A program made the position numbers and the translations under genes. A DNA stretch of 23,668 bases, taken from positions 1 through 23,668 of IMG/VR virus record IMGVR_UViG_3300044904_000059; one strand, 5' to 3'. Position 1 is the stretch's first letter; every line of letters begins with the position of its first letter. Under the pieces are notes generated by a model, which worked only from the letters and a program-made list of their open reading frames with translations, was not told where the DNA came from and did not search any database. The DNA is from a virus. Positions 407-16,847 of the stretch are shown here, piece after piece.

Positions 407-451
407 AATGACAAGAACCAAAACCAACCAAATATGAAATAAAGAAGAAAA

Positions 452-919: not shown

Positions 920-953
920 TGTTGTATATTTTTAATTATAATTATTATTTAAC

Positions 954-968: not shown

Positions 969-976
969 CTGAAAAA

Positions 977-1348: not shown

Positions 1349-1349
1349 T

Positions 1350-2217: not shown

Positions 2218-2221
2218 AATT

Positions 2222-2701: not shown

Positions 2702-2703
2702 AA

Positions 2704-3045: not shown

Positions 3046-3056
3046 TGTCGTATGTT

Positions 3057-3359
3057 TTAAGCCACAGTGAAATATTTATATGGTTGCAATAACCATTCAA
3101 GAGTGTACGGGATAACATAAGGTTGTCCAAATGATACAGGTGTTCTATTAATGTATAAATGTGCTGCCAATATCAGAATTGCTTGTTGTATTGGCATTGG
3201 CATAGTGCTACCAGTTATGCCAGATGTGCTACCTGTGAAATAATTAAGAAAATTAATTGCTGCAGGTTGTGCTACATCTAAGTAGAATTGTAAAATCGCA
3301 TCCTCTGATGTATAAGTATCTTCGATTTTTAACTGGCGTTTAAGTTGAGATATATTCAT
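3057..3359 (-). CDS. gp6-like head-tail connector (adaptor) protein
   Basis: Read from ATG 3359 the product is about 100 residues, beginning MNISQLKRQLKIEDTYTSED. The all-helical pattern 'ed..L..yl..A...i.~y~~' and the later AILILAAHLYINRTPV is that of HK97 gp6-type adaptors, which form the ring under the portal. I prefer this start over the longer in-frame ATG at 3416, because the longer version would run back through the late element (3367-3381) and the terminator stem (3391-3425). ATG 3359 has the late element at the usual 7-base distance. Confidence 0.8.
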   Translation of the reverse strand: MNISQLKRQLKIEDTYTSEDAILQFYLDVAQPAAINFLNYFTGSTSGITGSTMPMPIQQAILILAAHLYINRTPVSFGQPYVIPYTLEWLLQPYKYFTVA

Positions 3360-3366
3360 AATGAAT

Positions 3367-3381
3367 TTTATTATAAATACG
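3367..3381 (-). promoter_or_regulatory. Repeated late element, site 3 (before gp6-like gene)
   Basis: Exact CGTATTTATAATAAA copy, 7 bases before ATG 3359, immediately after the terminator of the capsid gene. Hairpin, element and start codon follow in that order, as in site 1. Confidence 0.7.
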
Positions 3382-3390
3382 CCAAAAAGC

Positions 3391-3425
3391 AAAAACCCTT
3401 GAAGAACTTTCTCCAAGGGTTTTTT
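3391..3425 (-). terminator. Terminator after the major capsid gene
   Basis: Stem AAAAACCCTTG / CAAGGGTTTTT (3391-3401 with 3414-3424) with a short loop; A-tract on one side and T-tract on the other, so it could work on both strands. It follows the capsid stop codon by about 20 bases. Confidence 0.85.
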
Positions 3426-3446
3426 ATATGTATTATAATATCTCTA

Positions 3447-4682
3447 TTATGAAAGTGCTGCTTTACCGAATGCTACTGTACGTCTTTGTTCTATGTCTAC
3501 ATAGAAGTTTGCAACAACTCTTACCATACCATTAATTGCTTGACTGTAAGGGTCTATGGTGAGGTCTAATCCACCCCATTGTCCCATAACTAATGAACTG
3601 AAATCTCCAAAAAGTGCTGCTTTCTTTGTTGAAAGTACTGTTGGCAAGTTAGTAGTTGTGTAATAACTATAACCATTAACTAAACTGTTTTCTGCAATGA
3701 AACTGTTACCATAAGTAGGTGTACGTGGAGTACCTTTTAATACACCGATTGTAGAAGGGTGGAAAAGGTAACTTGCACCATTTTTCAATGCATTTGCTGC
3801 TGTTACTGCTGACTCCATTGATATAATACCTGCGAAGGTAGAAGCACCTGTGAATGCGTAAGTAGGTAAATAGAACATACCAACTGGCTGTGTTGCAGAA
3901 CCTACTGCTGTACCGAGTGCTGTTTTTTCAAGTAAGTCCATTAGAGATGCCATTAAATCCTGTTGAAGCATTCCTTCTGCATCACCACTTGACTGTTGCA
4001 AGAACTGTTTTGATACGTCATAATATGCTGTGATTCTCTTAGGTGAAAGAGTAATTGTTGCGAAACCTTGACCTGCTACTGATGCTGCTCCAGATTCTGT
4101 CTGCCAGATTGCTGTTGCACCTGTTGAAATAAGAGGTATCTGTATGTTGCCAGTTAAATTGCTAAGAATTGTCATACCTGCCTTTGCAAGTACAAGATTA
4201 GCACGTAAATAAGGCAATAATTGAAGAATGTTTGTTGCTACGATTTCTTTACCTTCATTAGTTGTACCAGCCAAGATAAGAGTGTTAGCACGTGTTTCCA
4301 TTGCTTCCATTGGGATTGCAATTTGTCCACGATAATTTACGCCAGAATCTCTAAATGATAATTTACCTGCTTCAAGAATTGACATATCTGCTTCGTCTTG
4401 TGGACGACCTTCAACCACATTTCTGATGGTTCTGATAAGACTGAATTTATTGTTATCCATTGTATTGTTTGTTTTTATAATTATGTTATTTTTATTTTTT
4501 AAATTTCTTTTTTCTTCAAGTTGCTTGTCAATTTCAACAATTTCAACTTGGAGTTTTGCAAAATTGTCACCTTCATCAGTATCAAGTTTACGATTCTCAG
4601 TCTTGCCTTTAGCAGTTATTGCTTCAAGTTCTGCGACTTTGACTTTTCTTTCTTCAAGAAGTTCATTCATATCTTTAGCCAT
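3447..4682 (-). CDS. Major capsid protein, HK97 fold, with N-terminal delta domain
   Basis: A 411-residue protein. Residues 1-65 are a charged coiled-coil-like region (ELLEERKVKVAELEAITAKG ... EIDKQLEEKRNLK), the scaffolding delta domain of HK97-type capsids. The later part has the expected HK97 pattern, including PVGMFYLPTY, FHPSTIGVLKG and a C-terminal AINGMVRVVANFYVDIEQRRTVAFGKA (seen here in part). The protease gene directly upstream is expected to remove the delta domain, leaving roughly residues 75-411 in the mature shell. An in-frame ATG at codon 75 falls near that boundary and could also start a delta-less product. A late element lies 11 bases before the start and a terminator follows. 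Confidence 0.9.
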   Translation of the reverse strand: MAKDMNELLEERKVKVAELEAITAKGKTENRKLDTDEGDNFAKLQVEIVEIDKQLEEKRNLKNKNNIIIKTNNTMDNNKFSLIRTIRNVVEGRPQDEADMSILEAGKLSFRDSGVNYRGQIAIPMEAMETRANTLILAGTTNEGKEIVATNILQLLPYLRANLVLAKAGMTILSNLTGNIQIPLISTGATAIWQTESGAASVAGQGFATITLSPKRITAYYDVSKQFLQQSSGDAEGMLQQDLMASLMDLLEKTALGTAVGSATQPVGMFYLPTYAFTGASTFAGIISMESAVTAANALKNGASYLFHPSTIGVLKGTPRTPTYGNSFIAENSLVNGYSYYTTTNLPTVLSTKKAALFGDFSSLVMGQWGGLDLTIDPYSQAINGMVRVVANFYVDIEQRRTVAFGKAALS

Positions 4683-4693
4683 ATGATTATTAT

Positions 4694-4708
4694 TTTTTTA
4701 TAAATACG
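4694..4708 (-). promoter_or_regulatory. Repeated late element, site 4 (before major capsid)
   Basis: CGTATTTATAAAAAA on the coding strand, 11 bases before ATG 4682. A separate start here would let capsid protein be made in excess of protease. Confidence 0.65.
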
Positions 4709-4719
4709 CAGTTTTTTAT

Positions 4720-5394
4720 TTATTTTTTAAGAGTATTAATAATACCATCATACTTTTTATAATATTCTGCCAACTCCTTTGCATCAGTAACTTTTTTCTG
4801 TGCTTCGAGTTTCAGTTTTTCTTCAGCAGAACGTTGTTCTTGTTCTTTAATAAGTTTATCTGCTTCTTCTTTCTGCTTGAGTTCGTCAAGACCACGAAGA
4901 CTTACTACTGAATCTTCATACGCTGGCTCGACAACAATGCTAAACTCACCAACCTTATTGAATTTTGAAATGGTTCTATAATAACCATCACTGCGTTTCT
5001 CCCACTTCTCTGAACCACTATCAGTGCCAACTTTAAATCCGAATGATGCTGCTGATATATCACCATTGGCAATATCTTCAAGTAACCACTGGTCTTTTGC
5101 TTTTGCTCTGAACTCGAAATCAACACCATTTGGTGTTACATTCCAACGTAATGAATTTCTCTGTGCATCTGGCTTATAACGAGCAAGAACATAATCCTGT
5201 TGATGATTATAAGTCATACGAATTTCTTGTGTCTTTAAGAAATCTTCTGTTGCTGCCTGTGGCAATATGACTTCTGTAAACTGTCCACCAATTTTTATTG
5301 ATGGCTTATTGAATGTTATTGCAGTACCAGTAATTGTACCAGTTTCTTTGTTTGCTCTAACCTCTGTTAAATATCTGTATTCTAAATTTTCCAT
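4720..5394 (-). CDS. HK97-family prohead protease
   Basis: A 224-residue protein. The N-terminal ITGTAITFNKPS and GQFTEVILPQA blocks, the catalytic-type histidine H64 in MTYNHQQDYVLAR and serine S117 in GDISAASFGFKV match the S78 family of capsid maturation proteases, followed by the conserved EFSIVVEPAYEDS. It cuts the delta domains of the capsid protein inside the prohead. Residues about 170-210 form a charged coiled-coil-like tail (EELKQKEEADKLIKEQEQRS), which may bind the capsid delta domain. It is placed canonically between portal and capsid, 8 bases after the portal stop. Confidence 0.9.
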   Translation of the reverse strand: MENLEYRYLTEVRANKETGTITGTAITFNKPSIKIGGQFTEVILPQAATEDFLKTQEIRMTYNHQQDYVLARYKPDAQRNSLRWNVTPNGVDFEFRAKAKDQWLLEDIANGDISAASFGFKVGTDSGSEKWEKRSDGYYRTISKFNKVGEFSIVVEPAYEDSVVSLRGLDELKQKEEADKLIKEQEQRSAEEKLKLEAQKKVTDAKELAEYYKKYDGIINTLKK

Positions 5395-5402
5395 ATTATT
5401 TC

Positions 5403-6752
5403 TTAATTATTATTAGTGTTATTTACTTGTGTATCTGCATTTTGCGGGGTCTCTGAACCTGGCACAGTGCCTTTTACTACGGGATTCTGTAGGTCTTGTA
5501 AATTCGTACTGATGAATGCTTTATTACCACCAGCCACAGGAAAGTTTGAATTATACTGTGCACGTGCTTCGTTTGGAGTCTTAGCACCAATACCAACCAA
5601 TTTTGCAAGTGTGTCTGCTTTAGTTTCTGCATCGAGTCTCATAATGTTTTCAGTGTCGAATTTTAAATCAGTGGTTGACCATTCTGATGGTAAGTAAATC
5701 TTACGTCTGAACTCATTCTCGATTATCTCGATTTGTGGTAGTAAACCATTATTTAAAAAGTCCAATGATTGCTGTTCTGATGTGCTGTATTTTGCAGTTT
5801 CACTGAATGCTAAACTTGGTGGTACTCCGAAGAACCTGCATATTTCTAATACGTTGAATGCTTTGTTCTCAAGCAGTAATGAGTCACGTGGGTTTACACT
5901 TATTGGGTTATACTCAAGTCCTGCATCAAGTGCTACTATACCATTTGAAAGACCACCCATTATTGGGTTTGTCTGAGCAATGAAATCTTGCTTTGCCTTT
6001 GCAGCTTGACCTTGTTGAAGTTGTGCTCCTGCCTTTGGTGATAATACACCCGAAAGGTTTGCACCACCTAAGAAGAAGTTGTTACTATGTTGGTTTGTAT
6101 TGTAAGTTGCTCCGAGTGCATCCGCAGCATATTGAATTGTTGATACACCTAATATACCATCTGACTTAGTGTAGTTTGGTATATGAATTATCTGTGACTT
6201 GTCATAAACTCTGTGATTAAGTGCATTATAGTATGTTATGTTAACATCACCACCTGCAATTAATGTAGTTAAGTCAGTGTTTTCAGTGATGATAACACCA
6301 TTAACATATATGAATACGTAATCAGAATTTAATAGTGTCAGTGAAAGTACAATGCCTGAGTTTGATTTTTCAATTGCTATGAACGCATTACCTTTAGTAT
6401 GCTTGTTAATAACAATCATTTTCTTAAACATAAAAGCACTCTGATAACTGTTTGGCTGTATGTTTAAAAGATTATTTAAAATGTTTGTATCGTCTCTGTA
6501 TTTCCAACCATTATTAATAATGTATGGGTACATTGGTAATGATGCAATGCTGTCACTGAGTAATGCCAGACATCTGTAAACTGTTGATAAATTAGTTGCT
6601 TTATCACTTCTAAAATTTGAAGTATTGTTATAAGACATTGTACCTGTAACTGCATCGGCAAGAGTATATGATGAATCACGAGTTTCAAGTTTTTCTTCTG
6701 CTTGTGGTGCTTCGGTTTTTTTACCGAAAATATTCTGAAAGAAATTAGCCAT
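5403..6752 (-). CDS. Portal protein (HK97-type)
   Basis: A 449-residue protein. Hallmarks are STVYRCLALLSDSIASLPMYPY (seen from about residue 56, given here in part), the NILNNLLNIQPN block, KGNAFIAIEKSNSG and, later, the VLEICRFFGVPPSLAF and NNGLLPQIEIIENEF segments of the HK97 portal family. Twelve copies should form the ring through which the terminase pumps DNA. The C-terminus is low-complexity and polar (PGSETPQNADTQVNNTNNN). Late element 8 bases upstream of the ATG; terminase large subunit lies just upstream. Confidence 0.92.
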   Translation of the reverse strand: MANFFQNIFGKKTEAPQAEEKLETRDSSYTLADAVTGTMSYNNTSNFRSDKATNLSTVYRCLALLSDSIASLPMYPYIINNGWKYRDDTNILNNLLNIQPNSYQSAFMFKKMIVINKHTKGNAFIAIEKSNSGIVLSLTLLNSDYVFIYVNGVIITENTDLTTLIAGGDVNITYYNALNHRVYDKSQIIHIPNYTKSDGILGVSTIQYAADALGATYNTNQHSNNFFLGGANLSGVLSPKAGAQLQQGQAAKAKQDFIAQTNPIMGGLSNGIVALDAGLEYNPISVNPRDSLLLENKAFNVLEICRFFGVPPSLAFSETAKYSTSEQQSLDFLNNGLLPQIEIIENEFRRKIYLPSEWSTTDLKFDTENIMRLDAETKADTLAKLVGIGAKTPNEARAQYNSNFPVAGGNKAFISTNLQDLQNPVVKGTVPGSETPQNADTQVNNTNNN

Positions 6753-6760
6753 ATCTGTAT

Positions 6761-6775
6761 TTTATTATAAATACG
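6761..6775 (-). promoter_or_regulatory. Repeated late element, site 5 (before portal)
   Basis: Exact CGTATTTATAATAAA copy, 8 bases before ATG 6752, in the gap after the large terminase gene. Confidence 0.65.
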
Positions 6776-6813
6776 CTAATCCTTTCTTAATTTTTATTAA
6801 TTTTTCTTAACTC

Positions 6814-8436
6814 TTAATACACACCAAATGAGTATCTTGGAGACTCCAAATATGCACCGAGTGAATTGAGCATTGAAGCAACACCATCAATTTTTTTGCT
6901 CCTTGAGGACTTGTCAATGCTTTGGTTACCCATTGAATTTGTCTTAATAATTGCATTCGAAATCATCCACTTGGTTATGATATTATTCTGCAAGATGATA
7001 TTACCACTGAGTATAAGTCTTTGAAATTCTTTTATTGGCTTGTTAAGACTACCAGCATTCTGTGAGTAAGGTTGCATAATGAAAAATTGTGTTGAATTGA
7101 TTACAAACTGTGTACTATTCCACTTATCATAACTAATCATCTGTACTGCGTGACTCATATTGACCTTCTGAATATCTGCAAGTATTCTGTCATAGTCACA
7201 CACATTACCAGATGTTACGTTCATTTGTCCAAGTGCAGCAGCATTTCTGAACTTATCCTTATTTATGTTGGTATTCACCGAATCTTCGGGTACGTAATAT
7301 TCATTGAAAAAATATATCTGATTTTCTACGGGTATCATATAAGTCACCGAAGTACAGTCAGAAACACTTGAAAGGTCAACACCTACCCACACAGGCATTT
7401 CTTTAAACATCGGGTCAGATAATGTTATGTTCTGCATACTTGCAACAACAACATCTTCTGATAACCAGTCTTCATCACTATTTGCTTTTAACCATCTGTT
7501 GAAGTTCTTTACAAGCACACCATTACGTTCTGCTTCGAAGTTCGTTGCTTTGTTAACTTCTGACTCAATGAAATCGGGATAAACACTGATTGAAAGGTTC
7601 GGGTTGGCTTTTCTCCAACAGTCTTTATTTGTGTAATCATCATCATCATCAAGTGTAAATATTATGGCAAACTGTGATGGGTCATCAGCAATGCCACTAA
7701 GAATATCAGTGCAATAAGTTCTGAGTTGATAACAGAAACTCTGTTGGTCAAATCCTGCTGTTGTGATGCAAACAAATAATGGTTGCTCTCTTGAACCCAT
7801 TGATGACTTGATAACATTATACATCAAGTTATTCGGTGCTTCGTGTAGTTCGTCAATGATTGCGAAACTTGTATTAAGTCCATCGAGTTTTGATGCATCA
7901 CTTGCAGTTACTATTAGTTCACTGTCCTTGTATTTCAAACTGCTGTAATAATGTCTGATATGTTTTTTCTTTTTGTCAATCTGACTTGCAAAGGATTTGC
8001 ATTTTTTAAAGTTGACGTTCTTCGCTTGGTCTTTACTGTTGGCTGATACTACAACCTGTGCATCAACATCTGCAAGCAAATGATAAATAGCAAGAGCATC
8101 TGCCCATTGTGACTTACCATTCTTTCTTGCCATTTCAAGATATGCGTAACGTATTTTACGGGTGTTGTTGCTTACTCGGTATAGTGAATATATGGCTACA
8201 GTTATGAAAATCTGCCAGTCTTCGAGTATGAAATGCTTCTTGATTGTTTGTTCTGTAAGATAAAGTGTCTGTATGAAAGTTATAACAGCATCAACTTCTG
8301 ACTCATTATAATAATAGTCGGGATTACCTAAGTCATTTAACCACCTTTTACAAGCCAATTTGACCCAATGGCAAGCAGTGATACCACTTGATAAAACATC
8401 TTCTGCATATCTGATTGCTGTTTCTTTATTGATCAT
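6814..8436 (-). CDS. terL: Terminase large subunit
   Basis: A 540-residue DNA-packaging motor. The ATPase half has a Walker A-type loop ARKNGKS (residues 103-109), Walker B IIDE (193-196, in FAIIDELHEA) and the coupling motif ITTAG (224-228). The nuclease half shows the acidic positions D354 (VGVDLSS), D437 (SYDKWN) and D517 (KIDGVASM). This is the Terminase_1-type family of HK97-like phages. The start codon overlaps the stop of the preceding gene as TAATG, which suggests coupled translation with the probable small subunit. Confidence 0.96.
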   Translation of the reverse strand: MINKETAIRYAEDVLSSGITACHWVKLACKRWLNDLGNPDYYYNESEVDAVITFIQTLYLTEQTIKKHFILEDWQIFITVAIYSLYRVSNNTRKIRYAYLEMARKNGKSQWADALAIYHLLADVDAQVVVSANSKDQAKNVNFKKCKSFASQIDKKKKHIRHYYSSLKYKDSELIVTASDASKLDGLNTSFAIIDELHEAPNNLMYNVIKSSMGSREQPLFVCITTAGFDQQSFCYQLRTYCTDILSGIADDPSQFAIIFTLDDDDDYTNKDCWRKANPNLSISVYPDFIESEVNKATNFEAERNGVLVKNFNRWLKANSDEDWLSEDVVVASMQNITLSDPMFKEMPVWVGVDLSSVSDCTSVTYMIPVENQIYFFNEYYVPEDSVNTNINKDKFRNAAALGQMNVTSGNVCDYDRILADIQKVNMSHAVQMISYDKWNSTQFVINSTQFFIMQPYSQNAGSLNKPIKEFQRLILSGNIILQNNIITKWMISNAIIKTNSMGNQSIDKSSRSKKIDGVASMLNSLGAYLESPRYSFGVY

Positions 8437-8765
8437 TACTTCGGTTCAACATTCTTCTTAGCAACAAACCCTATTACGGGTGCTGCCTTATTTTTACTTA
8501 TTGCTTTGACAACAGCATTGAAATCATCATCATCAACACCATCACCTTGCAGTTTCTGATTCAGTTTCTTTAGGTCTTGCAACATTTTAAATGTCTGTTG
8601 TTTTAATTGATAGCATAAATATTGCTGACGTTTTTCATCATTATTATAATCATCCACAAGGTCATTATGGTGTTCAACAGTACTTATTACAATTTCTGTG
8701 CTTGCAGCATCAGCATTTATAGCAATAAGTTCTTTTTTTATTTTAGCCATTGATATCTTTTTCAT
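8436..8765 (-). CDS. Probable terminase small subunit
   Basis: A 109-residue, mostly helical protein directly before terL, sharing a TAATG overlap with it. The size, helical pattern (STEIVISTVEHHNDLVDDYNN, then QQTFKMLQDLKKLNQKLQ) and position fit small terminases of the P27 type, which bind the packaging site and load the motor. No clear HTH is visible, so the call rests on context. An internal ATG at codon 6 (MAKIKKEL, 8750) is an equally plausible start. The 5' end overlaps the endonuclease VII gene by 23 bases. Confidence 0.5.
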   Translation of the reverse strand: MKKISMAKIKKELIAINADAASTEIVISTVEHHNDLVDDYNNDEKRQQYLCYQLKQQTFKMLQDLKKLNQKLQGDGVDDDDFNAVVKAISKNKAAPVIGFVAKKNVEPK

Positions 8766-9204
8766 TGTGTTTATTTAAATATGCTTCGAATAATTCTTTT
8801 TTGGTCTCATATGTCCCAAGGTCAGTATTACATTTATAGCATAATAATCCTCTGACTTTACCTGTCTCGTGGTCGTGGTCAACATATAATGCTTTACCAT
8901 TTTCTTTTGCTGTCTTACCACAAATACTGCAACCACTAACTTGAAGTGTTAACATTTCATTGTAATCTTCTATAGTAATACCATATCTATATTTTAATCG
9001 GTGTGATTTCATTTTATCGGGATTATTTTCTTGCCACTCCTTATTACGACTTCTTGATAATTCTTTATGATTAAAATAATATCTCTTAGCAACTGCTTTT
9101 ACCGTTTCAGCATTCTTAGTTTTATATTCTTTACTGAAATTTTTCATATACGCTTTTCTTTTTTCAGCACTGATGACTTTTTCTTCTGGTGTTAATGTTC
9201 TCAT
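8743..9204 (-). CDS. Endonuclease VII family protein, copy 1
   Basis: A 153-residue protein with the endonuclease VII (His-Me finger) core: zinc pairs C92/C95 (GCSICGK) and C122/C125 (LLCYKCN), catalytic-type DHDH at 109-112 in YVDHDHETGKVRG, then N126. Residues 74-88 (YGITIEDYNEML) are the usual lead-in. In T4 the enzyme resolves branched DNA during packaging; in small phages such genes often behave as homing nucleases. Its place before the terminase genes fits a packaging role. The N-terminus MRTLTPEEKVISAEK closely matches that of the second copy at 21051-21482. Confidence 0.92.
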   Translation of the reverse strand: MRTLTPEEKVISAEKRKAYMKNFSKEYKTKNAETVKAVAKRYYFNHKELSRSRNKEWQENNPDKMKSHRLKYRYGITIEDYNEMLTLQVSGCSICGKTAKENGKALYVDHDHETGKVRGLLCYKCNTDLGTYETKKELFEAYLNKHNEKDING

Positions 9205-9216
9205 TTTTATAATATT

Positions 9217-9345
9217 TTATAATATAATAAGTGTATTTTCTACACTATACCCCACCCCAAGACCATATTTTTTAAGCCTCTGCTGGGGGTGTGATTCACA
9301 GGCAGTTACGAAAACTTCACCAAGGGGCGGGGTTAATACATTCAT
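9217..9345 (-). CDS. Very small ORF, 42 residues, unknown function
   Basis: An open frame of 42 codons that fills the gap between the lipoprotein gene (its stop ends two bases before this ATG) and the endonuclease VII gene. It reads MNVLTPPLGE... and contains KKYGLGVGYSVENTL near the end. It explains the locally GC-rich composition of this stretch. I do not recognise it. The same DNA can fold: ACCCCACCCC (9249-9258) is complementary, with one mismatch, to 9324-9333, so an RNA or DNA structure is an alternative explanation. Confidence 0.45.
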   Translation of the reverse strand: MNVLTPPLGEVFVTACESHPQQRLKKYGLGVGYSVENTLIIL

Positions 9346-9347
9346 AA

Positions 9348-9530
9348 TCAATGATTTATATTATATATTATGTGTGGCTTCTTAGGCATAACAATACTAT
9401 CATACTTAATACGTCCAGCACGATAGCAACTATCTGTCTTGATGTAATCGTAATGATGTTGATGTTCATACTCTTCTTTAGTACAACCTATGATTGTAAT
9501 TAAGAATACTATTAATATTATCTTTTTCAT
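9348..9530 (-). CDS. Small lipoprotein
   Basis: A 60-residue protein with a typical lipoprotein signal: MKK, hydrophobic core IILIVFLITI, then the lipobox I-I-G-C with the lipid-bearing cysteine at residue 16. The mature part is about 45 residues, polar, rich in His and Tyr (EYEHQHHYDYIKTDSCYRAG) and holds one further Cys. It should be anchored in a membrane of the infected cell. Small phage lipoproteins often block superinfection or alter a receptor; that role is inference here. It starts directly at the stop of the 55-residue gene before it. Confidence 0.75.
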   Translation of the reverse strand: MKKIILIVFLITIIGCTKEEYEHQHHYDYIKTDSCYRAGRIKYDSIVMPKKPHIIYNINH

Positions 9531-9698
9531 TTAGTTTAATTTTATTTTAAAGACTTCGAACTTCTTTATTGCTGCATATACTTCATCAAGAGTATAACAT
9601 TCTTTCTCCTTGCAATACATCAGTACTGCCTTGTATTGTTCATCAGTTATTGTTACTGTGAATGTTTGAATTATATCTACCTTAATTGTTTTCATCAT
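9531..9698 (-). CDS. Small conserved-looking protein, 55 residues, unknown
   Basis: Open frame from tandem ATGs (9698 or 9695) to a stop adjoining the lipoprotein start. The product MMKTIKVDIIQTFTVTITDE... has two predicted beta strands followed by helices (EQYKAVLMYCKEKE, LDEVYAAIKKF). I do not recognise the family. The late-type element CGTATTTATAA abuts its start codon, so it may be expressed together with virion genes. Confidence 0.6.
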   Translation of the reverse strand: MMKTIKVDIIQTFTVTITDEQYKAVLMYCKEKECYTLDEVYAAIKKFEVFKIKLN

Positions 9699-9709
9699 TT
9701 ATAAATACG
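9699..9709 (-). promoter_or_regulatory. Repeated late element, site 6 (short form, before the 55-residue gene)
   Basis: CGTATTTATAA directly joined to ATG, lying at the end of the sigma-like gene. The A-rich tail of the consensus is replaced by the start codons, so this is the weakest of the nine sites; if used as a promoter the transcript would be nearly leaderless. Confidence 0.4.
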
Positions 9710-9710
9710 A

Positions 9711-10373
9711 TTATAATTTTTGTTTCTTATTTTTCTTGTCCTTGAACACTCCCGACTTCAGTCCGAGTGTATAGTTAATCTGATAAAAATTTTCTTTAGT
9801 TATGCCCATAGTCTGCAAGATGTATGATTGAAATCCTTCACCATTACAGTTGTTGTTCTCAAGGTATTGTTTGAGTTGCATCAGATAAAATGCATTGGTT
9901 CTGACCTTCTCTTGTTCAATAATCTTACGGTCAAGTTCTGTGTATATAATCTCTCGTAGTTTATCTTGGTCAATGTCCAGTTCTTCATCATAATCATCAG
10001 TGGGTGTATCTTCACAAAACATATATTCAATCTTGGGTTTCTTTACTCTCAGATGTTGTCGTGTTACAGATATTAATGCGTTATTCACAACTATCCACAG
10101 GAATTGTAATACTGCTTTAATCTTCTTATCATCGAGTTTGGTTGATAGTACTTGCCAGACTTTCAGCATTGCATCTTGATGTGCTTCTTCTTTATCTTCT
10201 AAACTCCAAGATGACATATTTGTATTTACGGCATTATTAATAAGGTAGTTCAATTTGGGTTGCAATTGTCTGAATATCCTGTTACGAGTACTTGCTGATG
10301 TACAAGCAGTATAACAATAGTAGAACAGTCTTATGAGTTCGTTGTCTTCTGATGTCCAATAGTGATTACTCAT
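9711..10373 (-). CDS. Sigma-70 region 2-like protein (candidate phage sigma factor)
   Basis: A 220-residue protein. Residues about 30-108 follow the sigma region 2 pattern: IFRQLQPKLNYLINNAV, then EEAHQDAMLKVWQVLSTKL (as in 'eDavQevflrlw..l'), then FLWIVVNNALISVTRQHLR (as in 'wLyrIarNlaidylRr'). The middle (about 117-145) is acidic, and residues about 175-205 (LQTMGITKENFYQINYTLGL) could be an HTH in the place of region 4, though not a standard one. If it binds RNA polymerase it could direct it to the CGTATTTATAA elements before the virion genes. It overlaps the upstream HTH gene by 8 bases. The family call is tentative. Confidence 0.55.
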   Translation of the reverse strand: MSNHYWTSEDNELIRLFYYCYTACTSASTRNRIFRQLQPKLNYLINNAVNTNMSSWSLEDKEEAHQDAMLKVWQVLSTKLDDKKIKAVLQFLWIVVNNALISVTRQHLRVKKPKIEYMFCEDTPTDDYDEELDIDQDKLREIIYTELDRKIIEQEKVRTNAFYLMQLKQYLENNNCNGEGFQSYILQTMGITKENFYQINYTLGLKSGVFKDKKNKKQKL

Positions 10374-10653
10374 TTGCCAACATTTTTATTATGCCTGTAA
10401 TTCGTGTCGGTGTCATACCGTACTTCTGTGCTAATTCTTCTGTAGTCAACAAATCTTTATCTTTTTCTATACCCAAATACATATCTTGTATTCTCCACAG
10501 AGGAAATTTTTCGTCATCCAATAACCTATTAATATATATTTTGGCTTGCACATTAGTCATTGGATTATCTCCATAATTTTCTATATGCTCGCCTTCAATA
10601 TGACTCATTGCTATTTTCGGCTGAATTTCCTCTTGTGGCTCAACATAATCCAA
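10366..10653 (-). CDS. Small protein with C-terminal HTH
   Basis: A 95-residue protein. The last 30 residues (LTTEELAQKYGMTPTRITGIIKMLANE) have the form of a helix-turn-helix: a helix, a G-M turn, and a recognition helix. The first half is acidic and looks disordered (EPQEEIQPKIAMSHIEGEHIENYGDNP). It probably binds DNA. The stop overlaps the start of the sigma-like gene, so the two are likely made together; it might help that protein or act as its regulator. A small-terminase role is a less likely option, given the distance from terL. Confidence 0.65.
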   Translation of the reverse strand: MDYVEPQEEIQPKIAMSHIEGEHIENYGDNPMTNVQAKIYINRLLDDEKFPLWRIQDMYLGIEKDKDLLTTEELAQKYGMTPTRITGIIKMLANE

Positions 10654-10661
10654 GTACTTAA

Positions 10662-11072
10662 CTACTTTTTCGTCTTTTTTTTTAACTTAATATGTGCCCA
10701 GATAGAACGATATGCCCATTGTGGATAGTCTTCACATATAAGTGCAAGACTTTCATCACCATCATCATAACGACTTTGAATCTCTGCAATGATGCTATTT
10801 GGTATCAATTGATTCTGATGACTGAATTCCGGCTTTTTCTTTATTACCGGAGTTTTTTGACTTATTTCTGGGACTTCTACGACCTTAACTTTTTCTGGTA
10901 ATGGTATTGTATCACCCATTTTTTCGGCTGAACTAAGTTCTGCCTTGATTCTGCTGATTCTGTCATTAACATCACTTTTTATTGATGTTATCAATCCTCT
11001 GAGGATTTCTGTTTTTTGTTCTACGGTCAGTACATTCAGTATTGATTCCGTCAATTCTATTGATATTTTCAT
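10662..11072 (-). CDS. Protein with N-terminal helices and C-terminal Myb/HTH-like domain
   Basis: A 136-residue protein. Residues 1-50 are helical (LTVEQKTEILRGLITSIKSD), 55-90 are a Pro/Lys/Val-rich linker, and 91-130 (IIAEIQSRYDDGDESLALICEDYPQWAYRSIWAHIKL) look like a short HTH of the Myb/SANT type, with a basic end KLKKKTKK. DNA binding is likely; the target is unknown. It lies 8 bases before the next HTH gene in the same direction. Confidence 0.6.
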   Translation of the reverse strand: MKISIELTESILNVLTVEQKTEILRGLITSIKSDVNDRISRIKAELSSAEKMGDTIPLPEKVKVVEVPEISQKTPVIKKKPEFSHQNQLIPNSIIAEIQSRYDDGDESLALICEDYPQWAYRSIWAHIKLKKKTKK

Positions 11073-11084
11073 AATGATTATTTA

Positions 11085-11243
11085 TTAATTTTCTCCGGTT
11101 GTTCTAAAATATTCTTGTTCAATGAGTTTTCTTATAAACTCACTATAGTTAAGTCCAGCCATAAATTGTAACTTAGTCAAAATCTGAAGGCTGATGCGGA
11201 TTGCGATTCTCTCGGTTAATTTTTCTGTTTCTAACTTTTTCAT
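11085..11243 (-). CDS. Ribbon-helix-helix DNA-binding protein, 52 residues
   Basis: An open frame of 52 codons from ATG 11243. It has the Arc/CopG layout: a short strand RIAIRIS (residues 12-18), helix LQILTKLQFMAG, a turn at GLNYSE, and a second helix FIRKLIEQE. Such proteins bind palindromic operators as dimers, usually as repressors. Candidate targets in this genome are the palindromes at 12835-12852 and 13649-13672; that pairing is inference. It is 12 bases before the Myb/HTH-like gene. Confidence 0.72.
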   Translation of the reverse strand: MKKLETEKLTERIAIRISLQILTKLQFMAGLNYSEFIRKLIEQEYFRTTGEN

Positions 11244-11264
11244 TTTTTTTGGTTTTTTTAAAGC

Positions 11265-11303
11265 AGTCTTGGAGTATTTTTTTTTCTCCGAAGACTTTTT
11301 TTA
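11265..11303. terminator. Hairpin between the KilAC and RHH genes
   Basis: AGTCTTGGAG (11265-11274) pairs with CTCC-G-AAGACT (11286-11296, one bulged G) over a T-rich loop. The T7 run follows on the plus strand, so it would stop rightward (antisense) transcription best; for leftward genes it might weaken or time expression of the RHH protein. Confidence 0.5.
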
Positions 11304-11310
11304 TTATTTT

Positions 11311-11673
11311 TTAGCATACATCTGATAATTTGACTGTATACTTATTTTTTTCCACTCTCTTAGTAAATCCTATCTGAAACTCCTGTGTTTCAATCCTGCG
11401 TTTTATAAAGGCAATTCCCCTCTCTGACCATAAAGGCATCCCGACCTTCTTGTATCTACGATTGACCAAGTGCCAACGCATTAAGCCAAGACTGATTTGG
11501 CTCTGCTTTGGCTGGTTCGAGTCCAACATTATCAGACCCCAAAAACGACAACACTGTAAAAATTTGTTCCTGCCCAAGATTTTCTTACCATCCTTTAACA
11601 TAAGTACTTTTGCAACATCTGATGCATCGTACCAATAATCGTGTCTTCCTAATTCATTTTCAAATAGTATCAT
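11311..11673 (-). CDS. KilAC-type antirepressor domain protein
   Basis: A 120-residue protein that is essentially a stand-alone KilAC domain: WYDASDVAKVLMLKDGKKILGRNKF (residues 14-38), QCCRFWGLIMLDSNQPKQSQI (40-60), and LWSERGIAFIKRRI (81-94), matching the family's 'l.~~elak.l~..~~ig~nkl~~~Lr~~g~l......P.q~~~~~g~~.......T~~G~~~i~k~l'. In most phages this domain follows a KilA-N, Bro or Rha half; here no such half is present. It probably binds DNA or a repressor. It lies 21 bases downstream of the 154-residue gene. Confidence 0.75.
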   Translation of the reverse strand: MILFENELGRHDYWYDASDVAKVLMLKDGKKILGRNKFLQCCRFWGLIMLDSNQPKQSQISLGLMRWHLVNRRYKKVGMPLWSERGIAFIKRRIETQEFQIGFTKRVEKNKYTVKLSDVC

Positions 11674-11694
11674 TTGGTTTTGGTATTAATATAA

Positions 11695-12159
11695 TTATTT
11701 ACATATTTTCATTCTATCACAGACGTACATATCAGTAGTATAAGCCAGAAATATTACGTCTTTATCTTTCAGACCATTATCAACTGATGTTGTGCAGGGT
11801 AATTGCATTACACCTTGATTGTCCAGACCTACTCCATACTTAATTCTACGTGTAATATCAAAGGCAATCCAGTCATCGAAATAATAGTTGAAGTATAACT
11901 GGCAGACTGTTTTATCTTGCCTGTAGGCTTCCCGAAATGCGTCTAACTTGATTTTTTCCAGTATGGTTGCACCACTAATATCATTAATGCAGTAATACCT
12001 TTTCTTTAGTTCAACATTGTAACGGCATCCCGAAGTGCAGGCAGTCATCCGTAAATCGGTATGGTCAAATTCATTGGTATCTTCGAACTTATAAAGGTGT
12101 CCGAAGTCCGTCTTGAACTTGTTGCGTCCTATTGCGTCATCTGATTGAAAGTTGTCCAT
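11695..12159 (-). CDS. Protein of unknown function, 154 residues
   Basis: I do not recognise this protein. It is polar, mixed alpha/beta, with six scattered cysteines (TACTSGCRYN, RYYCIND, VCQLYF, QLPCTTS, YVCDRMKICK among them) and several aromatic segments (CQLYFNYYFDDWIAFDI). No signal peptide, membrane segment or known catalytic motif is visible. It is the first gene after the terminator at 12191-12231 and comes before the KilAC gene, so an early regulatory or host-takeover role is likely. I saw nothing that would make it a replication protein or endolysin. Confidence 0.7.
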   Translation of the reverse strand: MDNFQSDDAIGRNKFKTDFGHLYKFEDTNEFDHTDLRMTACTSGCRYNVELKKRYYCINDISGATILEKIKLDAFREAYRQDKTVCQLYFNYYFDDWIAFDITRRIKYGVGLDNQGVMQLPCTTSVDNGLKDKDVIFLAYTTDMYVCDRMKICK

Positions 12160-12451: not shown

Positions 12452-12682
12452 TTAGAGTAGGTTGCTTTCGTCTACCACTTGCTTGAGTTCACTCTGGTCT
12501 GCGAGTACTAAACTCTGTAGGTAATTGATAACCTTGCTGTGGGTAAGGAACTCTTGTCTGATATCCATTTTACCATCTTCTAAGTCTTGAAGCAATCCCA
12601 TTGTTGTTTCAATGAGTGCCTGTTTGTCCTCTAATAACTTCTGAAGTCTGTGAGGGTTGATGTTCATTGTCTGTGCTGCCAT
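12452..12682 (-). CDS. First early leftward protein, 76 residues, helical, unknown
   Basis: A 76-residue all-helical protein (HRLQKLLEDKQALIETTMGLLQDLEDG, then KVINYLQSLVLADQSELKQVV). No family is recognised. It starts about 35 bases after the leftward host-type promoter at 12722-12751, with an A-rich sequence (AAAAGAAAGAATCAA) before the ATG, so it is probably the first gene expressed leftward. ATG at codon 6 is a possible alternative start. Confidence 0.75.
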   Translation of the reverse strand: MAAQTMNINPHRLQKLLEDKQALIETTMGLLQDLEDGKMDIRQEFLTHSKVINYLQSLVLADQSELKQVVDESNLL

Positions 12683-12721
12683 TTGATTCTTTCTTTTGTC
12701 GGCTTCTGGTATCCAGTTGCT

Positions 12722-12751
12722 CGAAAATAAATACTAAAGTGGTACAGCAAA
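12722..12751 (-). promoter_or_regulatory. Leftward early promoter, Bacteroidota type
   Basis: On the minus strand: TTTG (12748-12751), 18 bases, then TATTTTCG (12722-12729), one base off TAnnTTTG. The preceding CTTTTGCTGTACC and the AGTATTTAT just before the -7 box are shared with the rightward promoter at 13987-14016, in mirrored orientation. Confidence 0.6.
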
Positions 12752-12815
12752 AGGATAAATTTTTTCAATTATTTTTTACTAACCTCTGTAAGTTGCTGAT
12801 ATATAAAGAAATAAT

Positions 12816-12960
12816 ATTTTCGAATAATGTATATCTGTTATTCGAATAACAGTATAGTGATATATATCATCTAATGTATTGATATATATCAATTACAGTA
12901 TATTTATTTGATATTCAATATCTTGCTATTTTTATCTATATATCTATATATCTATCTGAT
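12816..12960. other. AT-rich cluster of palindromes (operator field or replication origin)
   Basis: Perfect palindromes: CTGTTATTCGAATAACAG (12835-12852), TGATATATATCA (12858-12869), TTGATATATATCAA (12879-12892) and GATATT-C-AATATC (12910-12922); a half copy TTCGAATAA lies at 12819-12827, and ATCTATAT repeats follow to about 12955. No gene is present. This density of inverted repeats in AT-rich DNA suits an origin or repressor sites. Confidence 0.6.
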
Positions 12961-13076
12961 ACTGAACGCTAATATGTTATACATAGTACAGGGTTATACT
13001 ATAGTCGTCTGCGTTTAAAAGTACTGAAATTTACTTAACTCATTGATTATCAAAATAAATTTATTTTTACAGATTT

Positions 13077-13610
13077 CGTATTTATTTACAATCGCAGGAG
13101 ATAGCGTAAAAAGAATCTGGAGAACAGACATAAGACCAACAATCCCATAAGCCGATACTGAAGTAACACCTACTGGAAAGCATCACACTGAAACAACTCT
13201 TACTGAAGCATCCTTGACATACCAACGGGTATAACGCACCAAGGGACAAACAAACACAGCAGTTTTAACTAACACTGTTTACGGTACAGGAAAGTACTTC
13301 AGTAAGGATAAAAATTAGTATAAAGTGTTTGAATGGTGATGACAAGTTCTCTGTAGTGGCAAACAAAAAATAGCCTATGCAATGTTTCAAAAGATATCAT
13401 AGGACACGATATGGCTTCAGAGAATGCTATAAAAAACGCATATACTTACTATCAAATATGCTACGTATGAAATGTACGTGTGGAGTTATGAGCAGTTATC
13501 ATCTTGCCTGTTTTCAAGTTTTCTGGGTTGATGCAGGACATATCGTGGAGTTAAGGACTTTACTATGTCCTATAGTGAAAAATACCTAAAGTAATACTTG
13601 AGATAGAATA
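13077..13610 (+). ncRNA. Candidate structured non-coding RNA region
   Basis: A plus-strand CGTATTTAT element (13077-13085) precedes about 500 bases without a convincing ORF. Long-range complementarity: TACTGAAGTA (13156-13165) with TACTTCAGTA (13295-13304), 10 bp perfect; ATAGGAC + ACGATATG (13399-13413) with CATATCGT (13539-13546) and GTCCTAT (13567-13573). A competing local stem AGGACATA / TATGTCCT (13535-13542 with 13564-13571) reuses the last strand. No terminator is evident, so ends are approximate and the RNA itself is inference. Confidence 0.3.
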
Positions 13611-13620
13611 TTAAAAAGTC

Positions 13621-13651
13621 TTGCATATATAAAAAATTATTTGTACCTTTG
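13621..13651 (+). promoter_or_regulatory. Rightward promoter, Bacteroidota type
   Basis: TTG (13621-13623, preceded by C), 20 bases, then a perfect TAnnTTTG box TACCTTTG (13644-13651). It should start a transcript near 13656 that reads into the 55-residue plus-strand gene, with a leader of about 135 bases. Confidence 0.65.
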
Positions 13652-13672
13652 ATGTCATTACAATGACATCAA
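13649..13672. promoter_or_regulatory. Operator-like palindrome over the rightward promoter
   Basis: Perfect 11-base arms TTGATGTCATT and AATGACATCAA around AC. It overlaps the TTTG of the -7 box and the expected start point, the ideal place for a repressor dimer. Candidate binders in this genome are the ribbon-helix-helix or HTH proteins. Confidence 0.75.
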
Positions 13673-13790
13673 TATTTACATTACTCCTACCCCATTTGTA
13701 CTTGACAATAATATTAATTATAGGCTTTTAAATCTGAAAAAATAATTGAAATAATTGAATTTTTTTTCTATATTATTACGTATAAGCATT

Positions 13791-13958
13791 ATGAAAGCAG
13801 TTATTAATGTATGTTACGCAGGAAAGGAGTTCAAGCAAGACCAGATGGCAATAATGAAAAGGATTGCTATGGTACTTGCAGAACACGACCTTTCTGTAGT
13901 AATAAACATTAAAGAGAAAAAGGTTAAGCACCTTAATATTAAACTCCGTGTAGTCTGA
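13791..13958 (+). CDS. Only convincing plus-strand gene: 55-residue protein, unknown
   Basis: Starts at ATG 13791, preferred over an in-frame TTG at 13755. The product begins MKAVINVCYAGKEFKQDQ and is basic, with a helix MAIMKRIAMVLAEHD and strands DLSVVINIKEKKV and LNIKLRVV. I do not recognise it. It lies behind a repressible-looking promoter and opposite to all other genes, the place a lysogeny or copy-control gene would take; that role is inference. The strong plus-strand terminator at 14051-14083 lies about 90 bases downstream. Confidence 0.65.
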   Translation: MKAVINVCYAGKEFKQDQMAIMKRIAMVLAEHDLSVVINIKEKKVKHLNIKLRVV

Positions 13959-13986
13959 TGAAAAATAAATATTAAGAAATTTGACT

Positions 13987-14016
13987 TTTGCTGTACCTGT
14001 TCAGTATTTATCTTTG
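13987..14016 (+). promoter_or_regulatory. Rightward promoter, near-perfect Bacteroidota type
   Basis: TTTG (13987-13990), 18 bases, TATCTTTG (14009-14016), which matches TAnnTTTG exactly. CTTTTGCTGTACC and AGTATTTAT are shared with the leftward promoter at 12722-12751. No gene follows before the terminator at 14051, so the likely product is a short RNA. Confidence 0.7.
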
Positions 14017-14019
14017 TAA

Positions 14020-14083
14020 AAGTCCCATAACTTTTCGTTTATTAATGTTCGAGTGCTGGTAGCCAATGACCAGCACTCTTTTT
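14020..14083 (+). ncRNA. Candidate small RNA of about 64 bases
   Basis: Defined by the near-perfect promoter at 13987-14016 and the strong terminator ending at 14083, with no ORF between. The 5' part (AAAGTCCCATAACTTTTCG) looks unstructured and could pair with other RNA. The 5' end is an estimate from promoter geometry. Confidence 0.4.
14051..14083 (+). terminator. Strong plus-strand terminator
   Basis: Perfect 10-bp stem GAGTGCTGGT / ACCAGCACTC (14051-14060 with 14069-14078), loop of 8, then TTTTT. It ends the short-RNA and 55-residue gene transcripts before they meet the leftward late genes. Confidence 0.9.
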
Positions 14084-14092
14084 ATTATATAA

Positions 14093-14221
14093 CTATGATG
14101 TTATTGTGGCTTTGTGTCTTGAAAGATTGTTATTGCTGTCGTCAAAGACTAATATTAATAGGAAGTGATAAATTAATGATATAATTATCAATGTTGAAAT
14201 GAAGAACAATGTGAAACTCAT
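14093..14221 (-). CDS. Small membrane protein, 42 residues (lysis candidate)
   Basis: Open frame from ATG 14221. Residues 1-25 (MSFTLFFISTLIIISLIYHF) form one long hydrophobic segment; the rest is short, polar and slightly basic (DDSNNNLSRHKATITS). It is the last leftward ORF of the fibre/tail operon, next to another membrane protein. A holin-like or single-gene lysis role is possible but only inferred. A partial late-like sequence, TTTATAATAAAAT without the leading CGTA, lies about 18 bases upstream. Confidence 0.5.
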   Translation of the reverse strand: MSFTLFFISTLIIISLIYHFLLILVFDDSNNNLSRHKATITS

Positions 14222-14314
14222 AGTGTTAATTTTATAGATTTTATTATAAAATTAATATATTATTAGAAATACATCACTTGTGGTTTTAACATAATAAAAT
14301 TGATTTATAAAAAG

Positions 14315-14334
14315 AGGTGGTAATTAAACCACTT
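14315..14334 (-). terminator. Probable terminator of the late tail/fibre operon
   Basis: Short stem GTGGT / ACCAC (14317-14321 with 14328-14332) with loop of 6, followed on the minus strand by CTCTTTTTATAAATC. Weaker than the other terminators, but it directly follows the stop of the 93-residue membrane protein. Confidence 0.6.
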
Positions 14335-14627: not shown

Positions 14628-14924
14628 TTATATTAAACTTGGTTGCACAGTATAAGTGCTTTTAGCAATTGTGTATTTTAATGCACCTTTAATAATATAT
14701 GCTTCGTAAAAATATGCTCGTTCTGGTATGTTATTTTGTGTTGCACTGATGTTTACAATTGCAATTTGATTTGTAATTGTAACTCCTGATATTGTAAAAA
14801 GTATTGATGCATCGTTATACTCAGTATCATCAACTATGAATGTCAGAGTATAACCACTATAACCTGCTGGTACACTTATTGATATTACCTTTGTGTTGCC
14901 TTTATATGTACTAATTTCGTTCAT
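14628..14924 (-). CDS. Small beta-sandwich baseplate/fibre protein (BppU N-terminal-like)
   Basis: A 98-residue all-beta protein. The pattern KGNTKVISISVPAGYSGYTLTFIVDD, then a strand pair, then AYFYEAYIIKGALKYTIAKSTYTV, is that of the small 'r.gdt..~~~~~... Y.yei.~~~~~~~~Ti~~G~~~v' proteins found among baseplate and fibre genes, including the N-terminal domain of BppU. It probably attaches a fibre. Late element 6 bases before the ATG. Confidence 0.6.
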   Translation of the reverse strand: MNEISTYKGNTKVISISVPAGYSGYTLTFIVDDTEYNDASILFTISGVTITNQIAIVNISATQNNIPERAYFYEAYIIKGALKYTIAKSTYTVQPSLI

Positions 14925-14930
14925 TTCGAT

Positions 14931-14945
14931 TTTATTATAAATACG
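14931..14945 (-). promoter_or_regulatory. Repeated late element, site 7 (before the BppU-like gene)
   Basis: Exact CGTATTTATAATAAA copy, 6 bases before ATG 14924. Confidence 0.65.
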
Positions 14946-14958: not shown

Positions 14959-16338
14959 TTAATTTGAACTGCCTGTTAAATTCTCACTGATGATTTTACC
15001 AATAATATTTACAGGTGTTTCACTACCTGTGATATTATCACTCACAATATTACCGAGTAAATTAACTGCTAAGATGTTACCTGTTATACTGTCAACTGTG
15101 ATAGTGCCTATAATTGCTTGTGAAATAACAACTGAATTATTATTATAAATATTACCGATAATATTAAAAGTTAATGGTGAAGTACCACTAAGTAAACCTT
15201 TACCTTTAATTGCTGTTGAACTACCAAATGTCAGTGTGGTATTTGCACCAATTAAGCCTTTACCTTTAATGACTGTTGAACTATTAAATGCTATTGGTGA
15301 TGTACCTTTAATAAGTCCTTTGCCTTTAATAACAACATTGCTACCAAATGTCAATGGTGATGTGCCGATAACCAAGCCTTTAACTTTAAAAAAAGCATTA
15401 CTTGCAAATGTCAATGGTGAAATACCTTTAATAAGTCCTTTACCTTTAATTGCAACATTACTTGCAAAAGTTATTTGTGACGTGCCTGTGACAATACCTT
15501 TACCTTTTATTACTGTTGAACTACCAAATGTCAATGGTGAAGTACCTATTATATAACTTGCTGTTGCACCAGTTGTATTTTTAATATTATTTACAAAGTA
15601 ATTTAGTATTGTTTCAAATGCTGCACGCTTGGTACTATCCATTGCAGAACCAAAGCCATAATATTTATATCTTGTATGGTGACCCCACACCAAACTGCCA
15701 CCATAATTCATAACACCTAATGTATACGTTTGATTTGGTGGTGTACCAGAAGTATATGTATAACCTGTTTCTACACCGTTTATTCTTGTAATTAAGTCAT
15801 TTGAAGTAGTTCTGACAAACATCGAACTTCCAGTAATCCAAATAGGGTCAGGTGTAATATTATTACCTTGATTTATATAGTTAGATGAATAGGCATTATA
15901 ACCTACCAAAACAGCATTCCAGTTATTTGTATCATATGCACCATCAGCACCACCAGTAGTATCACCATTTTTATTTATATTGAAATATATACCTGCATTA
16001 TTTTGGGTGAATTTTGTTGCTAATGATGGATTAAAGCCAGTATCAATATGACTATAATTAACACCGTTATTATTACCTGTAATTTCTGTTGCAGTATATG
16101 CAGAAAATGAAACTGGTTGTGTATCTGTATACCAAGTTTGAGTATTGCCACTGCCTTTGATATTCAGTTTACTTGCTTGTGCTGTATGAAGGTTCATAAA
16201 CCAGAAAGCATCAAGTTCTGCCCAAATGCCAGCACTTGTCATACCAGTAATGGTATTATTAATAAGATTTTTTAATGCAGTGGATGGTTGCACATCCATA
16301 CGGGCAAAATATGCCAGTGCTTCTGTACAATATGCCAT
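14959..16338 (-). CDS. Tail fibre / receptor-binding protein with 20-residue repeats
   Basis: A 459-residue protein. Residues 1-255 look like a globular adhesin domain: MAYCTEALAYFARMDVQPS, WAELDAFWFMNLHTAQ, GVNYSHIDTGFNPS, and the segment LVWGHHTRYKYYGFG, a pattern I associate with phage fibre or concanavalin-like modules. Residues about 265-390 are six full tandem repeats of 20 residues with consensus KGKGLIKGTSPLTFGSSTVI. A second, looser repeat (GNIVSDNITGSET, GKIISENLTGSSN) forms the end. The repeats should build an extended beta shaft, and their number could vary between related phages. A role in host binding is inferred from position and architecture. Confidence 0.7.
   Translation of the reverse strand: MAYCTEALAYFARMDVQPSTALKNLINNTITGMTSAGIWAELDAFWFMNLHTAQASKLNIKGSGNTQTWYTDTQPVSFSAYTATEITGNNNGVNYSHIDTGFNPSLATKFTQNNAGIYFNINKNGDTTGGADGAYDTNNWNAVLVGYNAYSSNYINQGNNITPDPIWITGSSMFVRTTSNDLITRINGVETGYTYTSGTPPNQTYTLGVMNYGGSLVWGHHTRYKYYGFGSAMDSTKRAAFETILNYFVNNIKNTTGATASYIIGTSPLTFGSSTVIKGKGIVTGTSQITFASNVAIKGKGLIKGISPLTFASNAFFKVKGLVIGTSPLTFGSNVVIKGKGLIKGTSPIAFNSSTVIKGKGLIGANTTLTFGSSTAIKGKGLLSGTSPLTFNIIGNIYNNNSVVISQAIIGTITVDSITGNILAVNLLGNIVSDNITGSETPVNIIGKIISENLTGSSN
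15161..15555. repeat. Tandem 60-bp repeats within the fibre gene
   Basis: Six full 60-bp units (15181-15540) plus flanking partial units. Each holds variants of CCTTTACCTTTAAT and ends near GTCAATGGTGA. Units differ at many positions, so the array is old or under selection at the protein level rather than a recent expansion. Confidence 0.95.
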
Positions 16339-16363: not shown

Positions 16364-16807
16364 TTAATCTATTGAAATACAAAGTGTACCTGCTGCAAAA
16401 GTCGGTACTACACCAACAGTTACGTTTAATGGTGTTGTAATTGTACCATTTGCAAGCATATTACCTGCTGTTATGCAATCATAGACTGCGAAGTAACAAG
16501 CACAGTTAGTACCACTGGTATTTTGACCAAATACAACATCTGCTGTATTAGAAGCAACACCCTTACTTGCTGTTGTTGCTACTGTCCAAGCAGCACTACG
16601 ACATACACCAACTCTTGCATATCCTGCATAGTTTGCTTCAGTCCAACTCGGTACTTTTGCATCTGACATTGCAGTACCAATTGCAATATAAACACATCCT
16701 GCTGCTGCACTTGCTAATACACCGTTTGTATCACCCAGACCACTTATTGCGGTATTTTGAAAGATATGCTGTGATAATTTACCGTCGAAATAATTTGTTG
16801 CTGCCAT
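16364..16807 (-). CDS. Fibre-associated virion protein
   Basis: A 147-residue protein. The pattern YIAIGTAMSD ... YAGYARVGVCRSAAWTVA ... ADVVFGQNTSG ... YFAVYDCITAGNMLANGTITTPLNVTVGVVPTFAAGTLCISID follows a small phage structural family found beside tail fibres ('YaRv.v ... n...v.F ... i.da..gGn.l~~g~l...~~v~~Gd~~~f.aG~l~i~~d'). It probably is a fibre or head-fibre-like decoration protein. Six cysteines, fewer than in the next two genes but still many. Late element 25 bases upstream. Confidence 0.62.
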   Translation of the reverse strand: MAATNYFDGKLSQHIFQNTAISGLGDTNGVLASAAAGCVYIAIGTAMSDAKVPSWTEANYAGYARVGVCRSAAWTVATTASKGVASNTADVVFGQNTSGTNCACYFAVYDCITAGNMLANGTITTPLNVTVGVVPTFAAGTLCISID

Positions 16808-16832: not shown

Positions 16833-16847
16833 TTTCTTATAAATACG
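16833..16847 (-). promoter_or_regulatory. Repeated late element, site 8 (before the fibre-associated gene)
   Basis: CGTATTTATAAGAAA on the coding strand, 25 bases before ATG 16807. A small TTGTT/AACAA stem lies just upstream. Confidence 0.6.

Follow-up and report, generated by a model that had tools for sequence, protein, structure and literature searches.

A putative phage sigma factor and a recurrent -10-like element before the virion genes of a 23.5-kb siphovirus

The gene, its neighbours and its relatives

The window, as we call the whole stretch of 23,668 nucleotides analyzed here, is a circularly closed contig with an end repeat of 127 bases. It represents an HK97-type siphovirus of 23.5 kb with a Bacteroidales-type host. 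The gene under study, 9711-10373, starts with an overlap of 8 bases with the stop of its upstream neighbour and is followed directly by the first copy of a recurrent element. The features are listed in Table 1.

Table 1. Genes, protein regions, candidate late promoter elements and terminators of the window phage
Feature	Position	Strand	Remark
Putative sigma-factor gene, 220 aa, ATG start	9711-10373	(-)	
Region 2 of the sigma-like protein	about residues 8-114		
Acidic linker of the sigma-like protein	about residues 115-135		about 20 residues, low confidence
C-terminal four-helix domain of the sigma-like protein	about residues 136-205		possible region 4
Small gene with C-terminal HTH-like stretch, overlapping the start of the sigma-like gene	10366-10653	(-)	conserved in L044, partly in L039
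Gene in the same early unit as the sigma-like gene	10662-11072	(-)	conserved in L044
Terminase large subunit (TerL, HK97-type)	6814-8436	(-)	served to find related phages
Portal gene	5403-6752		
Maturation protease gene	4720-5394		
Major capsid protein gene	3447-4682		
Major tail protein gene	452-919		
Tape-measure-like gene	21482-23200		
Candidate late promoter element CGTATTTATAA, immediately after the sigma-like gene	9699-9709	(-)	first late element; position relative to the sigma-like gene shared with L039, L047, L053, L069, L070
Candidate late promoter element before the portal gene	6765-6775	(-)	
Candidate late promoter element before the major capsid protein gene	4698-4708	(-)	conserved in L002
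Candidate late promoter element before the head gene starting at 3360	3371-3381	(-)	intrinsic terminator precedes
Candidate late promoter element before the major tail protein gene	958-968	(-)	
Candidate late promoter element before tail gene 14-331	344-354	(-)	
Candidate late promoter element before the tape-measure-like gene	23211-23221	(-)	
Candidate late promoter element before gene 16364-16807	16837-16847	(-)	
Candidate late promoter element before gene 14628-14924	14935-14945	(-)	
Intrinsic terminator closing the capsid-gene unit	3391-3424	(-)	just 5' of the next late element
Intrinsic terminator after the major tail protein gene	383-406	(-)	just 5' of the next late element

Close relatives were gathered by TerL alignment. 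With an HMM of the 9711-10373 ORF, homologues were detected in 12 phages other than the window phage (L038, L039, L044, L047, L052, L053, L063, L065, L066, L067, L069 and L070). Those of L038, L039 and L044 are 44-53% identical to the window protein, and those of eight more phages 23-30%. Wherever both are visible, the homologue lies upstream of TerS/TerL in the order seen in the window. Because homologues are found in related phages with the same gene order, we regard 9711-10373 as a real gene. The L070 homologue is in two pieces separated by a TGA. In this phage TGA is read as tryptophan (2400-3130 and 3623-5242); two invariant tryptophans of its TerL are TGA codons, and the sigma-like gene is continuous only if TGA encodes tryptophan. 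The L052 homologue (1862-2530) is apparently split or frameshifted near its C-terminus.

An earlier note, made from the sequence of the window, had described the two genes immediately upstream as HTH-like. This held weakly for 10366-10653, whose C-terminal stretch matched HTH_24 (E 0.1), Mor (E 0.16) and a late-activator PHROG (E 0.14), and did not hold for 10662-11072, for which Pfam/PHROG-type searches gave no significant match. L044 keeps homologues of both genes in unchanged order. It is possible that the 10366-10653 product is a partner or regulator.

Several other features of the window were recorded. Putative homing-type endonuclease genes (HNH and GIY-YIG-like, translations judged by eye) lie among the virion genes at 1350-1676, 1660-2217, 8743-9204 and 21051-21482, and by eye the last two appear to be paralogues. 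Tandem-like repeats with the motif SPLTFGSN-VIKGKGL occur at 15160-15560 in the product of 14959-16338, a probable tail or fibre protein. A stretch of about 1.6 kb (12690-14330) that is nearly free of ORFs separates the early unit from the last virion genes and may hold the origin and early promoters.

Relationship of the protein to sigma factors

The earlier note had seen region 2-like features in the translation of 9711-10373 and had proposed profile searches and structure comparison. As a single query, the window protein did not reach the curated cut-off in any search. Its match to the PHROG sigma family had an E-value of 0.018, and Pfam, PHROGs, tblastn in phages and a scan of viral contigs returned nothing usable. 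The family profile did better: it matched three PDB sequences, ECF sigma factors only, over regions 2.1-2.4 (E 0.19-0.58), and with 12 sequences in the profile the best E-value was 0.048. One family member matched the PHROG sigma family (E 8.3e-6) and two matched Pfam Sigma70_r2 (best E 0.0033). No Pfam family passed its cut-off for the sigma-like family, and no library named the family above cut-off. The A3 sigma scan of the genomes found none.

We compared the family by HHalign with Bacteroidota ECF sigma factors taken from two Bacteroidales genomes. The alignment had an E-value of 7.1e-5 and a score of 38.7. This score was reached by 0 of 200 column shuffles, the highest of which scored 16.9; the reversed alignment scored 14.4, and the TerL and capsid controls scored 14-21. 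The signal came from the N-terminal half (E 3e-5). For the C-terminal half the E-value was 0.097, and 1 of 100 shuffles scored higher. The sequence relation of the family to T4 gp55 was not significant.

The AF2 model from the single sequence was poor (pLDDT 39). The model from 12 sequences had a pLDDT of 78 and a pTM of 0.45, with C-terminal helices at residues 136-153, 158-173, 181-189 and 193-203. When it was searched with Foldseek against the PDB, the first 12 chains were all sigma factors, at weak E-values (0.2 and above). The top named viral match was a phage ECF sigma factor (E 0.008). VIA-align ranked the T4 late sigma factor gp55 (7d7c_F) first, with a Z-score of 10.3 over 127 residues. 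The rows covering both domains had an rmsd near 20 A, indicating that the model does not fix the relative placement of the domains.

Weak Foldseek E-values, a lack of Pfam families above cut-off and the ease with which helical models yield middling Z-scores would also be expected if the protein were not a sigma factor but some other helical DNA-binding protein, unrelated to sigma factors and similar to region 2 in fold. This is very improbable, since independent methods agree on both the family and the region, and the HHalign score stands far above its shuffles. The region 2-like features were thus borne out by the profile matches, by HHalign, by the predicted model and by the structure searches made with it, and sequence and fold together support the assignment of the N-terminal half to sigma region 2. 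That the C-terminal domain corresponds to region 4 is, as judged from the model, plausible but unproven.

The recurrent element and late transcription

The uniform promoter-like element that the earlier note had placed before the virion genes was confirmed. TTATAAATACG, which is CGTATTTATAA on the coding strand, is present in 9 exact copies in the window, all in one orientation and each before virion or packaging genes, and the early unit has no exact copy. With up to 2 mismatches there were 41 matches (18.7 expected), a count that 0 of 100 shuffles reached. The shorter GTATTTATA occurs 9 times in the sense and 0 times in the antisense direction, compared with an expectation of about 0.3. An imperfect element, GTATTTATTTT, lies on the minus strand at 12723-12734 before the first early gene (12452-12682); it has no A-run and may be a chance match.

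We collected 100 element sites. Among the relatives GTATTTA forms the core, the next base is T (74%) or A, and an A-run stands at +11 to +13; the core recurs at equivalent places in related phages. In relatives with a TerL identity of at least 55%, the elements are on the sense strand, at most 45 nt before ORF starts, and almost never antisense; the only exception is L068, a 5.5-kb fragment. No position of a -35 element is conserved among the 100 sites, which show only an AT preference 13-16 nt upstream. An intrinsic terminator was found within 75 nt upstream of 30 of the 100 sites, compared with 28 of 2000 random positions (1.4%), a contrast that is somewhat flattering as the random positions include coding sequence. 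Positions 1-12000 of the window yielded two minus-strand terminators, each of them immediately ahead of an element.

The genomic distribution was also examined. The pattern GTATTTATA-NN-AAA-ATG has 6 sites in a 4-Mb Bacteroidales genome, and 6 of 6 lie inside a prophage carrying the sigma-like gene; a permuted control pattern had none. The pattern is absent from a Proteiniphilum genome, whose related prophage has neither the motif nor the sigma-like gene. A scan of viral contigs for the motif returned mostly chance matches and one true relative, L009.

Bacteroidales-type hosts make little use of Shine-Dalgarno sequences, and most elements lie 13-20 nt before an ATG. An RNA or translation signal, acting in ribosome binding or processing, could therefore occupy such a place without being a promoter. 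However, the distance to the ATG ranges between 1 and 45 nt and clusters a second time at 30-42 nt, the element at 9699-9709 abuts an ATG, and genes inside the late units lack the element. Moreover, many sites are directly behind terminators, where a new start is needed. We consider a translation signal quite improbable. The orientation, the terminators and the prophage-only sites fit a phage-specific promoter and disfavour a host promoter or a translation signal. From these sequence contexts, we argue that the nine CGTATTTATAA elements would behave as phage-specific late promoters.

Given the earlier note's claim that a phage sigma factor could read the late element, we compared the occurrence of the gene and the motif. 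Among motif-bearing phages of the group, 14 have sequence upstream of TerL, and 13 of these, the window phage included, also have the gene. Neither is present in Proteiniphilum-type prophages or in more distant TerL relatives. In the window phage, L039, L047 and L053 the first late element follows the sigma-like gene directly; in L063, L069 and L070 the two are slightly further apart. The motif edge bases (-2, -1 and +7 to +10) were compared across 12 taxa of one clade in an exploratory analysis whose tests are prone to be liberal. They co-varied with the protein's region 2 half when distances in GC, TerL, portal and capsid protein were partialled out (r 0.36, p 0.005). The correlation was r 0.42 (p 0.0005) for the -2/-1 bases alone and vanished for +7 to +10 alone, indicating that the signal comes from the -2/-1 bases. 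The edge bases did not co-vary with the C-terminal half.

The fourteenth phage is L050, which is near-complete, has a TerL 55% identical and carries at least 8 good element copies; both ends of its contig lie in neighbouring head genes. No sigma homologue was found in it by HMMs over all ORFs of at least 40 aa, Pfam, PHROGs or a search in any frame. The earlier note had held that related phages keeping the motif without the protein would refute its claim, and L050 is a phage of this kind. Either its sigma factor is too diverged to be seen or another factor can read the element. In the latter case the elements might be late promoters read by a host alternative sigma factor, or by an unrecognised phage activator with the host holoenzyme, and the sigma-like protein would regulate elsewhere. 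The neighbouring HTH-like genes could supply such activators. Nevertheless, the restriction of the pattern to the prophage within the Bacteroidales host genome, its absence from Proteiniphilum, the motif variation that follows the region 2 half, and the conservation of the sigma-like gene beside the first element all make another reader unlikely. The late-promoter behaviour and the near-complete co-occurrence speak for the earlier claim, and the exception of L050 speaks against it; the link between protein and motif, drawn from comparison of genomes, is circumstantial but good.

We therefore favour the reading that 9711-10373 encodes a phage sigma factor of the sigma-70 superfamily directing host RNA polymerase to the late elements, with a probability of about 0.77; our confidence that the protein reads the element stays below 0.8 because of L050, which has the motif but no homologue that could be detected. 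According to this sigma-factor reading, the early unit (12682 to 9711) would be expressed first and yield the sigma factor, which would bind the host core enzyme via region 2. The core would then be taken over to the -10-like element GTATTTATA with its downstream A-rich stretch and no conserved -35, and nine late units would start, covering packaging, portal, capsid, head-tail, major tail, tape measure and further virion-region genes. As intrinsic terminators end some late units just before the next element, these units would start their own transcripts. If the T4 geometry applies, the start sites would lie 5-12 nt before most ATGs, and leaders of this length fit the low Shine-Dalgarno use of the host group. 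The element at 9699-9709 probably serves the TerS-TerL unit, because the predicted start falls inside ORF 9531-9698. The earlier note had also assigned host-type promoters to the early genes. This part was not supported: the Bacteroidota -33/-7 pair occurs once in the window, on the other strand and at chance level, and Bacteroidota consensus promoters overall are no more frequent there than chance predicts.

Comparison with known systems and a sister clade

T4 late promoters consist of a single 8-9-bp -10-like AT box with AT-rich sequence downstream and no -35, and the box, located at -13 to -6, precedes the start by about one helical turn (PMC2988020). Like gp55, the window protein is small and belongs to the sigma-70 family with only region 2 recognisable, and in both phages -10-only elements precede virion genes. 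However, the T4 box is TATAAATA, whereas that of the window phage is TATTTATA preceded by G (coding strand). The window protein has an extra C-terminal four-helix domain; late sigma factors of the gp55 type have a sliding-clamp-binding C-terminal epitope and the co-activator gp33. The window phage also differs from T4 in being a 23.5-kb siphovirus of a Bacteroidales-type host.

phiEco32 and 7-11 combine a phage sigma factor with short extended -10-like motifs before structural genes, and their promoters were predicted from genome sequence (PMC4331800). Their 9-bp promoters (tAATGTAtA) belong to another phage group and differ from the window motif. No anti-sigma factor was identified in the window phage, where each of many single late units carries an element of its own. 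The ECF (group 4) sigma factors of Bacteroidota resemble the window protein in region 2 (E 7e-5) and in the two-domain layout of the model, but have regions 2 and 4 joined by a short linker, whereas the window protein has a long acidic linker and a possible region 4 without sequence support. The element sites of the window phage, in contrast to ECF promoters, have no conserved -35. These comparisons suggest a T4-gp55/phiEco32-like strategy that would be run by a new sigma family.

In the literature and libraries searched, we found no description of the family, the motif or its drift and no paper on a late sigma factor of a Bacteroides phage; a literature search for the GTATTTATA string gave unrelated matches among those listed. 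We give about even odds to the full proposal, namely that an undescribed, region-2-dominated phage sigma family underlies a minimal early-to-late switch in phages of 22-24 kb with Bacteroidales-type hosts. In this proposal, a -10-only promoter would stand before each of many late units, often immediately after a terminator, late mRNAs would be almost leaderless, and specificity would drift with the sigma factor within the clade and be swapped in L054/L055, where TGTCTATATA stands for GTATTTATA.

In the sister clade L054/L055 (TerL 47%), TGTCTATATA takes the place of GTATTTATA: it precedes TerS, portal and further virion genes at homologous positions. In L055 it occurs on the sense strand only (for example at 2350, 4289, 5523, 7619, 8976 and 9854), and some of the TGTCTATATA elements lie right behind terminators. 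A short region-2-like ORF (3636-4016; HMM E 0.009-0.018) was seen in L115, a phage with the TGTCTATATA element. Its HHalign comparison with the sigma family was not significant, and as a candidate sigma factor of the L054/L055 clade it is only a lead.

The sigma-factor reading would provide a complete, testable transcription programme for a Bacteroidales-type phage group without a named regulator, and an independent case of a small phage sigma factor serving -10-only promoters. Natural promoter-sigma variants, such as those of GTATTTATA and GTATTTAAT phages, could be swapped to map specificity. The pair, being absent from one 4-Mb host genome, is a possible orthogonal expression tool in Bacteroidota. 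For experiments, a lysogen might be reached through L063 (WXFD01000075.1, contig C75, about 41-63 kb), an intact-looking integrated prophage with a tyrosine integrase, flanked by recA and other host genes. It is integrated in a contig of a Bacteroidales MAG, which suggests Bacteroidales-type hosts for the phage group.
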